From Halorubrum vacuolatum (GTDB lineage: Archaea; Halobacteriota; Halobacteria; Halobacteriales; Haloferacaceae), in contig NZ_FZNQ01000025.1 in the NCBI RefSeq assembly GCF_900188065.1, positions 1-32,883 of the forward strand: a stretch of DNA of 32,883 nt, in the 5' to 3' direction. The position numbers and the translations under genes were made by a program. Of the stretch, positions 4,871 through 32,508 are shown in pieces. Under the pieces are notes generated by a model. The model saw only the letters and a list, made by a program, of their open reading frames with translations, had not been told where the DNA came from and did not search any database. Numbering within the stretch: position 1 is the first letter of the stretch; every line of letters starts with the position of its first letter.

Positions 4871-4973
4871 GGATGTGTTCTTCTTGGGCAACGTGACGCG
4901 AGGGATCAACCGATGTCGTGGACCCCCGCCGAATGAAAAGGTCTTTTACCGTGACCGGGATACTCCTCGATGA

Positions 4974-5047
4974 GGGCCGGTAGCTCAGTTAGGGAGAGCG
5001 ACGGACTCTTAATCCGTCGGTCGCGTGTTCAAATCGCGCCCGGCCCG
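4974..5047 (+). tRNA. tRNA-Lys (CTT)
   Basis: A 74-base cloverleaf. The acceptor stem GGGCCGG pairs with CCGGCCC at 5040-5046, with a G discriminator at 5047. The anticodon stem ACGGA/TCCGT encloses the loop CTCTTAA, giving anticodon CTT. The T arm is GCGTG-TTCAAAT-CGCGC. CCA is not encoded and there is no intron. A TTTT run follows immediately and may end transcription. Confidence 0.95.
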
Positions 5048-5182
5048 TTTTGTCACGAGCACATACGCGAGTGGCAAAACGGCGATCATGATTTGAACGC
5101 AACGAACAGATCTGCTGTGAGTGAGTGTTCAAATCGCGCCCGGCCCGTATTTAACCGAGTAAGTACTCGAGAAGCAAATCGG
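5025..5182 (+). repeat. 100-bp-offset duplication of the tRNA-Lys 3' end
   Basis: Bases 5025-5048, which are the T arm, acceptor 3' strand and one further base of tRNA-Lys, recur without mismatch at 5125-5148. Ungapped comparison at the same 100-base offset continues past the tRNA: 5048-5082 against 5148-5182 agree at 23 of 35 positions, including CGAG, TAC, CGAG, GCAAA and CGG blocks. The region 5' of the second copy shows at most patchy similarity to the tRNA body, so it is not a functional second tRNA. It may be an old tandem duplication or a vestigial attachment site of a tRNA-targeting integrative element. No integrase gene is present. Confidence 0.8.
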
Positions 5183-5235
5183 ATCACAACGGATGAATAA
5201 ATACCGCCGTCTCGGTGTCGCCCGTCAACGGACGG

Positions 5236-5370
5236 TCAGTCGGGATCAGGAGGGGACGCCAGCCGACCGCCACAGTCCGGACAGGCTGCCCGGTACGCCA
5301 CGGGAATGATCTGCTTTCCGCACTCAAGACATTCGAAGTCTGGTCTGTTGTCAGCGTGTGTTGAACTCAT
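5236..5370 (-). CDS. 44-residue zinc ribbon, rubrerythrin-like domain protein
   Basis: ATG at 5370 to TGA at 5236 encodes 44 residues with two CxxC pairs, FECLECGKQ (C14, C17) and ACPDCGGRL (C30, C33). This is the pattern of the tiny haloarchaeal 'rubrerythrin-like domain' proteins, which carry only the rubredoxin-like metal knuckle pair. A role in metal binding, redox or as a protein adaptor is possible, but none is demonstrated by sequence. The gene lies in an AT-richer stretch between the two tRNAs and has its own promoter. Its GC is lower than its neighbours, which fits later acquisition. Confidence 0.75.
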   Translation of the reverse strand: MSSTHADNRPDFECLECGKQIIPVAYRAACPDCGGRLASPPDPD

Positions 5371-5571
5371 ACCCGATTGTTGTTACTCGATAGGATATGA
5401 ATCTTGCACCGATAGAGTCACAACTGTATAAGGATATTAATGGTTGGTTTGTCCAGCCTTTTGCTTTTTATTGTACGATCCACAACCCCACCGCACGTGG
5501 TTGCACTGGCGCGACGGGATCCTCACGAGCGAAGCGAGTGAGGGTCAGTCGCGCTCGCGAGTGGTAACGAG
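5371..5571. other. gene-free AT-richer stretch with hairpins after tRNA-Arg
   Basis: Apart from the zinc-ribbon promoter I see no gene. Bases 5521-5543 are an imperfect inverted repeat (CCTCAC and GTGAGG arms around GAGCGAAGCGA). A second one runs from CGCTCG near 5552 to CGAGCG near 5568. Both lie just downstream of the minus-strand tRNA-Arg and could shape its 3' processing or termination. The GAGCGAAGCGAG motif is common in haloarchaeal intergenic DNA. The plus-strand frame through here crosses the tRNA and is not a gene. Confidence 0.4.
5393..5402 (-). promoter_or_regulatory. TATA-like box for the small zinc ribbon
   Basis: ATTCATATCC on the minus strand ends 23 bases before the ATG at 5370, with its centre near -27. 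This supports a leaderless transcript and so the reality of this small gene. Confidence 0.45.
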
Positions 5572-5644
5572 CGGGCACGGCGGGATTCGAACCCGCGATC
5601 GAGAGGTTAGGAACCTCTCGCCCTGTCCGCTAGGCCACGCGCCC
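5572..5644 (-). tRNA. tRNA-Arg (CCT)
   Basis: A 73-base cloverleaf on the minus strand. The acceptor GGGCGCG pairs with CGTGCCC, including one G-U pair, and the discriminator is G. The anticodon stem AGAGG/CCTCT holds the loop TTCCTAA, giving anticodon CCT. The T arm is GCGGG-TTCGAAT-CCCGC. There is no intron and no encoded CCA. Confidence 0.95.
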
Positions 5645-21975: not shown

Positions 21976-22629
21976 ATGGAGGGGAAACTGCCAAGCGGAC
22001 CGATCGGCTATGGGGCGCTCGCATTGCTTGGCCTCTCCGTTGCGATCCATCTCACCGTCGGCGTGAGCGAGCTGTTGGGCGTGATCACGGGTCACGGTGC
22101 GTTCGCGTACGCGCTGATGCTGCTCGTCGCCGCCGCGCTCCCCATCGTGCTCATGGGCGCGATGGTAGCCGGAGTGCTGCAGCCGAACGCGACCTATGCG
22201 ACCCTTTCCGGCGTCTTCGCGTTCTATCTCTTCGCCTACGTCGATATCCATGCGCTCGGGACGATCGAGTCGGTGACGGGCGCCGACCTCCACTCGCACG
22301 ACCACGGCGATCACGGCCACGACGACGGCAGTCATGGCGACGGTCACGATGATCACGGCCACGACGACGGCAGTCATGGCGACGGTCACGATGATCACGG
22401 CCACGATGACGGCAATCATGGCGACCATCACGATGACCACGCGCACGACGATCACGGACACGATCATGACGACAGCCACGCGCACGACGATCACGGACAC
22501 AGCCACGAGGGCTCCACGGTGGACGTCGTCGCGGAGCACCTCATCGCGGACCCGCTTGCGCTGATCTCGAAGGTCGCGGAGGGAACCGCAGTGGTGCTGT
22601 TTGCGCTCCTCGCGCTTCGTGAGGACTGA
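21976..22629 (+). CDS. membrane protein with long His/Asp repeat loop
   Basis: A 217-residue protein of unrecognised family. Residues about 10-95 contain three predicted helices (GALALLGLSVAIHLTVG, ALMLLVAAALPIVLMGAMVAG, LSGVFAFYLFAYVDI). Residues about 105-177 are almost only His, Asp, Gly, Ser and Asn in tandem repeats. A last hydrophobic helix follows (ISKVAEGTAVVLFALLAL). The loop should bind Zn, Ni, Co or Cu ions. Similar loops occur in metal transporters and chaperones, but no transporter signature is visible. ATG 21976 follows GTAATACG about 27 bases upstream. An unspecified metal-sensing, storage or delivery role is inference only. Confidence 0.75.
   Translation: MEGKLPSGPIGYGALALLGLSVAIHLTVGVSELLGVITGHGAFAYALMLLVAAALPIVLMGAMVAGVLQPNATYATLSGVFAFYLFAYVDIHALGTIESVTGADLHSHDHGDHGHDDGSHGDGHDDHGHDDGSHGDGHDDHGHDDGNHGDHHDDHAHDDHGHDHDDSHAHDDHGHSHEGSTVDVVAEHLIADPLALISKVAEGTAVVLFALLALRED
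22309..22434 (+). repeat. three in-frame 42-bp tandem repeats
   Basis: Units 22309-22350, 22351-22392 and 22393-22434 each encode 14 residues of the type DHGHDDGSHGDGHD; the third unit is slightly diverged. A second, shorter repeat (GCGCACGACGATCACGGACA at 22441 and again at 22480) continues the pattern. The unit is a multiple of three, so copy number can change without a frameshift. Confidence 0.9.
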
Positions 22630-32374: not shown

Positions 32375-32508
32375 GGACCGGGACGCGAATAGTTGGAAGC
32401 CGACGTGTCGGGACGCGAAATGGTAGGCATCGAGGTGTCGGGACGCGAAATGGTAGGCATCGAGGTGTCGGGACGCGAAATTGTAGGCATCGAGGTGTCG
32501 GGACGCGA
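32375..32508. repeat. 30-bp tandem repeat between convergent genes
   Basis: Three units of 30 bases, at 32405-32434, 32435-32464 and 32465-32494, start GTGTCGGGACGCGAAATGGT and differ by one base (a T for G in the third). A degenerate unit (32375-32404) precedes them, and a 14-base partial unit (32495-32508) follows. They have no spacers, so this is a minisatellite and not a CRISPR. It fills the gap between the GNAT stop at 32369 and the minus-strand gene end at 32517. Read on the minus strand, each unit encodes ten residues (RHLDAYHFAS), in the frame into which the frameshifted gene runs. Confidence 0.95.

Follow-up and report, generated by a model that had tools for sequence, protein, structure and literature searches.

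Hairpin-bearing units with copied tRNA 3' ends behind tRNA-Lys(CTT) of Halorubrum vacuolatum and other tRNA genes of Halobacteria

The tRNA-Lys(CTT) gene of Halorubrum vacuolatum is followed by a second copy of its own 3' end, and this locus raises the question of whether such a copy is the scar of an integrative element, an old tandem duplication or part of something else. The window, that is, the whole stretch of DNA that was analysed, comprises 32,883 nucleotides.

The duplication and its internal parts

The copied block comprises the last 23 nt of tRNA-Lys(CTT) (5025-5047). Positions 5025-5048 and 5125-5148 (sequence GTGTTCAAATCGCGCCCGGCCCGT) were identical at 24 of 24 bases with an offset of 100; this perfect match, described in an earlier note on the same DNA, was borne out by direct comparison, and it is not due to chance, since the longest exact repeat obtained in 1000 shuffles of region 4900-5400 was 13 nt. 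The similarity that the note reported beyond the match is real, with 22 of the next 35 bases identical at the same offset instead of the 23 counted before, and a repeat search retrieved a single 58-nt pair of 79% identity and spacing 100. Similarity extends past the tRNA end because a sequence of hairpin A type follows each tRNA-end copy, the second one in the window being degenerate.

The earlier note missed that GATTTGAAC is an inverted copy (reverse complement) of the T-arm segment GTTCAAATC. The layout of the unit is tRNA, hairpin A, inverted copy of its own T-arm, hairpin B and second copy of the tRNA 3' end (Table 1). Hairpin A carries tandem G-A mismatches and GC/GC beneath its loop. 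The loops may contain the ultra-stable DNA mini-hairpin GCGNAGC. The tRNA-Lys(TTT) gene of the same genome follows the same plan with its own sequence, having the copy at offset 115, the inverted segment GGGATTCGAAC and hairpins. A tRNA-Lys match was obtained in each of the 52 genomes of the genus that were searched, and a protein encoded nearby has its closest named relatives mainly in Halorubrum.

Table 1. Coordinates of the tRNA genes and unit parts in the window.
Feature	Position	Strand	Remarks
tRNA-Lys(CTT), host gene	4974-5047	+	ARAGORN; Rfam RF00005, 66.7 bits
Hairpin A, CGTTTTGTCAC GA GC ACATAC GC GA GTGGCAAAACG	5046-5081	+	Folded as DNA, z -2.75
Inverted T-arm, GATTTGAAC	5090-5098	-	Complementary to GTTCAAATC of tRNA-Lys and of its copy
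Hairpin B interior	5099-5126	+	One long hairpin with inverted arm and T-arm copy; DNA fold z -2.52
tRNA-Lys 3'-end copy, T-loop to discriminator plus one base; right unit boundary	5125-5148	+	24/24 identity
Second A-type segment, degenerate, behind the copy	5146-5182	+	22/35 identities to first A; weak fold, z -1.17
Tentative related module behind tRNA-Arg(CCT)	5508-5543	-	Read directly from the sequence
tRNA-Arg(CCT), neighbour of tRNA-Lys(CTT)	5571-5644	-	

Among the units compared, hairpin B formed at least seven Watson-Crick pairs into the tRNA-end copy in 115 of 135, and the T-loop of the copy was equalled by the inverted arm in 91 of 109. The T-stem beside the inverted arm fitted its own tRNA at 4-5 of 5 positions in 52 of 128 units, versus 19 of 128 for a foreign tRNA (p = 6e-6). 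Seven units had a T-loop class unlike that of the tRNA, and both arms had changed together in five of these. The copied tRNA-Lys end often contained one extra T-loop base at CTT loci (L034, L046, L055, L059, L066, L070, L077 and L078), in the three forms GTTCACAATC, GTTCAAAATC and GTTACAAATC.

The tentative module behind tRNA-Arg(CCT) consists of a hairpin, CCTCAC-GAGCGAAGCGA-GTGAGG (5521-5543), and an imperfect 13-nt copy of the tRNA-Arg 3' end (5508-5520, two mismatches); it also holds a loop motif match, of a kind that is not rare by chance in the window.

A zinc-ribbon open reading frame of 44 amino acids is located at 5236-5370 on the reverse strand (DUF7129, E 1.3e-6, just below the cut-off), and zinc-ribbon-type sequence was also observed behind tRNA-Lys(TTT) of H. 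vacuolatum. The earlier note had regarded this gene as fitting a small foreign remnant, but it was ruled out as a component of the element by the occurrence of such sequences behind tRNA-Lys(CTT) in species in which the site is empty (L073, L076).

Occurrence at other tRNA genes and in other genomes

The spread of the units within genomes was determined as recurrence of the last 19 nt of each tRNA gene within 700 bp downstream, one tandem tRNA cluster being set aside, in H. vacuolatum and in G111 and G057, genomes of two other families, so that the three genomes represent three families. The own 3' end was copied downstream of 14 of 45 tRNA genes in H. vacuolatum (a count that includes a tandem tRNA-Asp gene; 13 under a stricter count), 14 of 31 in G111 and 16 of 30 in G057, the samples of the latter two being the 30 best-scoring tRNAs of each genome. 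The upstream control gave 0 in G111, 0 in G057 and 1 in H. vacuolatum (14-nt test), the last being the tandem tRNA-Asp gene.

For comparison across species, the inverted-arm/arm motif GATTYGAA-N(20-50)-TTCRAATC was used, with the reversed pattern as control. The motif was present in 114 of 116 Halobacteria genomes and in 44 of 45 genera, and the reversed pattern gave zero matches in all 114 motif-bearing genomes. In other classes of the phylum the motif was detected in 11 of 124 genomes, with one or two matches each, and the reversed control in three; judged by this motif, the element looks specific to Halobacteria. Outside H. vacuolatum, 42 of the 43 sites fetched (the first ones listed, and thus a non-random sample) were situated 19-200 bp behind a tRNA 3' end. 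A hairpin-forming DNA module of ~100 bp is widespread: in the three genomes, between a third and a half of the tRNA genes examined have it immediately downstream.

Presence at one and the same site is variable. Among 49 species placed at the tRNA-Lys(CTT) site, 11 were filled, 4 had remnants and 34 were scored as empty. The filled state required at least nine changes on the tree of the upstream region, in which some branches are long, and it clustered on that tree no more than shuffled labels did. In five comparisons the flank past the unit aligned from its first base with the flank that stands, in a relative, directly behind the tRNA or another unit, the sole control being that the unit itself matched the empty flank less well; these alignments argue that the unit is a precise indel with a duplicated tRNA end. 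On this sequence evidence, the unit is a clean insertion between tRNA-Lys(CTT) and the native flank in some Halorubrum species and is absent from others. A duplication conserved at this spacing throughout the genus, which the earlier note had named as grounds for giving up the scar of an integrative element, was not found; both spacing and presence vary.

Units are also arranged in tandem. The tRNA-Lys(TTT) loci contained as many as six copies downstream, spaced at periods of about 100-110 bp, as in L110, with copies at +90, +201, +312, +423, +551 and +625. As read from the sequences, a limited set of A and B hairpins is combined in varying ways, and 78 of 177 distinct units had an exact interior 20-mer in common with units at different tRNAs. 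The tRNA-Phe and tRNA-Tyr units of H. vacuolatum had 38 nt in common, and the tRNA-Lys and tRNA-Arg units of G057 had 37 nt. Hairpin B may be common to different tRNAs, yet its arms match the local tRNA. Simple tandem duplication was rejected as a full account, covering array growth only. From the extra similarity the earlier note had concluded against a plain attachment (att) scar, proposing either an old tandem duplication or an element that carried tRNA flank; the second proposal and the objection to a plain scar stand, whereas the first is insufficient because it accounts neither for the inverted T-arm and hairpin B nor for the recurrence of this design at tRNAs unrelated to each other.

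Candidate explanations

A real integrative element of the same host was available for comparison. The tRNA-Val(TAC) gene of H. vacuolatum harbours a 19.8-kb island (L405/L406, G000:C48:3047-22900) with MCM helicase, DNA methylase and tyrosine integrase genes. Its left end is the tRNA followed by TCTTTTTAGTGG, and its right end is CAAGACCAGAGG followed by the tRNA end; neither hairpin A, inverted arm nor B was present at the ends of this one dissected island, and a unit array begins directly behind its right end. For these two reasons the units are best read as resident 3' flank into which the real island was inserted, with the reservation that this is one island and others may differ. A distant copy in G014 (26 kb), considered as a clean island end, proved to be the remnant of a disrupted tRNA with an A-type hairpin behind it.

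The evolution of the stems was compared with that of tRNA stems. Covariation was significant at all six fixed-position stem pairs tested around the loop motifs, in both A and B (58 A-type stems), although quasi-palindrome templating can be its source without any function. G-U and A-C counts were 29:19 in unit stems with at least three Watson-Crick pairs versus 55:7 in tRNA stems of the same loci (p = 0.0007), and 55:43 in all unit stems versus the same 55:7 (p = 1e-5). A DNA-level hairpin element is favoured because the stems covary but lack RNA-like G-U tolerance; the counts speak for pairing at the DNA level or for templated repair of palindromes. G-A mismatches were enriched only on the tRNA-sense strand (152 versus 46 expected in A). 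This excess indicates that the tRNA-sense strand folds well, which is natural if the unit is an RNA and counts against a DNA element, and the asymmetry leaves room for an RNA role.

The interval 5048-5148 is tentatively interpreted, with a probability of roughly 0.45, as one member of a family of short DNA elements that are non-coding, occur throughout Halobacteria and have their anchor point at tRNA 3' ends. Every unit supplies the tRNA 3' end anew, so that the tRNA is left whole and a further unit can attach to the end thus formed. The unit would act as single-stranded DNA in folded form or as a cruciform, and a candidate tyrosine recombinase, with the 7-nt T-loop as crossover, may capture or exchange units. 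Copying within the hairpin would re-match the inverted arm to the local tRNA, and slippage or recombination between tRNA-end copies would expand and delete units. The sites of tyrosine recombinases consist of a 7-bp overlap with inverted repeats on either side, a plan to which tRNA genes are similar, the anticodon loop being the one described (PMC8371274); that the T-loop may take this part instead is our own inference. Since two short identical T-loop cores in inverted orientation flank hairpin B, its exchange by such an enzyme is plausible, and ordinary homologous recombination could hardly account for it. The interpretation as an element family is also weakened in that the one dissected island, which encodes an integrase of its own, does not resemble the units at its ends, and a blastn search of plasmid and phage records with one 131-nt unit as probe retrieved no unit, the two 32-nt phage matches being at chance level.

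Less probable, but the strongest of the alternatives, is a passive origin, in which slippage, quasi-palindrome template switching and recombination between short repeats alone build, match and shuffle the units, with no dedicated enzyme or function. Arrays with identical neighbouring units (L110) and the near-symmetric pattern of G-T and A-C mismatches fit such an origin, as do the indels mediated by repeats of <20 bp that are described for Haloquadratum (PMC3119063). It leaves unexplained why the T-loop and the tRNA end are the limits of the copy across dozens of different tRNAs, why hairpins of 30-38 nt are common to unrelated tRNAs of one genome, and the near-absence of the units outside Halobacteria.

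A more far-reaching and rather unlikely extension is a gene-less, integron-like system, in which a resident recombinase would read tRNA T-loops and the folded strand and would add, swap and delete hairpin cassettes behind many tRNA genes, possibly providing alternative landing sites so that viral integrases leave the tRNA itself alone.

It is unlikelier still that the units act at the RNA level. In that case, transcription from the tRNA promoter would yield a structured 3' trailer or small RNA, much as the Escherichia coli tyrT repeats yield rtT RNA. The invariable position of the units 3' of a tRNA in the same orientation, the concentration of G-A mismatches on the tRNA-sense strand and the covarying stems agree with this, and repeats with the tRNA 3' end behind the tRNA are a trait of such trailers that the units do have. 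The RNA-like stem evolution expected of a trailer, with G-U kept and A-C not, was not observed, G-U not being tolerated above A-C as it is in tRNA stems; furthermore, Rfam searches gave no family match over the units, and their presence among close species is patchy.

Finally, the idea that an integrative element since lost has left its right end behind as the copy, which the earlier note considered, is very improbable and largely refuted: the direct repeat of the tRNA 3' end is there, a copied block reaching from the T-loop to the 3' end is usual for tyrosine integrases that target tRNA genes and islands of this kind occur in the genus, as at tRNA-Val of H. vacuolatum, but the comparison with that island, after which a plain att scar was dropped as the main reading, showed unlike ends and a unit array beyond them, numerous tRNAs in many genera have the same internal parts behind them, and neither integrase nor cargo lies between the repeats in the window, where the 77 bp separating the 23-nt blocks are too short for an integrase gene.

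Known systems and further repeats in the window

The tyrT tandem repeats of E. coli are repeats of >100 bp behind a tRNA gene, each with a copy of the tRNA 3' end, and thus resemble the units in being tandem repeats behind a tRNA that contain its 3' end. They are confined to a single locus in enterobacteria and are released as rtT RNA, and we know of no inverted T-arm design at many tRNAs among them. In integrons, gene cassettes are modules added serially, and attC sites are folded-strand sites with inverted core sequences. The likeness to the units is in outline only (serial modules and inverted cores in a folded strand); unlike cassettes, the units have no genes, and their sites are tRNA T-arms.

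The att duplications of tRNA-integrated elements (islands of Haloquadratum, PMC3119063; Thermococcaceae, PMC9897764; archaeal tyrosine recombinases in review, PMC8371274) have in common with the units the direct repeat of the tRNA 3' end and the intact tRNA, but the units are without island or integrase, measure ~100 bp and have fixed internal hairpins, an inverted T-arm and tandem arrays. Work on Haloquadratum has recorded short-repeat deletions as well as repeats of tRNA ends beside prophages (PMC3119063), and tRNA fragments in Thermococcaceae were attributed to islands and CRISPR (PMC9897764). The MITEs, PATEs and small mobile repeats of Haloquadratum are short, non-coding, palindromic and strain-variable like the units, which in addition show the presence/absence at the same site among relatives expected of such mobile repeats; as far as they are described in the sections consulted, they are neither anchored at tRNA ends nor carry host tRNA sequence (PMC3119063). 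In Haloferax gibbonsii LR2-5, 11 partial tRNAs are recorded, several of them beside the full gene; compared by description only, and within the sections consulted, their internal structure, spread and mechanism are not described, in which they differ from the units (PMC7921747). No description of the unit structure was found in the open-access literature, and the element seems undescribed save for such remarks on "partial tRNAs".

A structured element so placed in three families, and detectable in nearly all sampled Halobacteria genomes, changes how tRNA-end duplications in haloarchaea are to be read, these often not being island scars. The units confuse the annotation of tRNA genes and att sites, and they offer a ready natural assay of short hairpin DNA moving between fixed sites.

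Other repeated sequences were noted. The window contains an exact direct repeat of ~57 nt with offset 42 at 22309-22406 (GATCACGGCCACGACGACGGCAGTCATGG...), probably a coding repeat, another repeat of 25 nt at 22437/22476, and 30-bp tandem repeats (GTGTCGGGACGCGAAATGGTAGGCATCGAG) at 32405-32508, close to the window end. Elsewhere in H. vacuolatum (G000:C20:12613-14650; L127, L133, L215), about ten tRNA genes are densely arranged on one strand, resembling a halovirus tRNA cluster.
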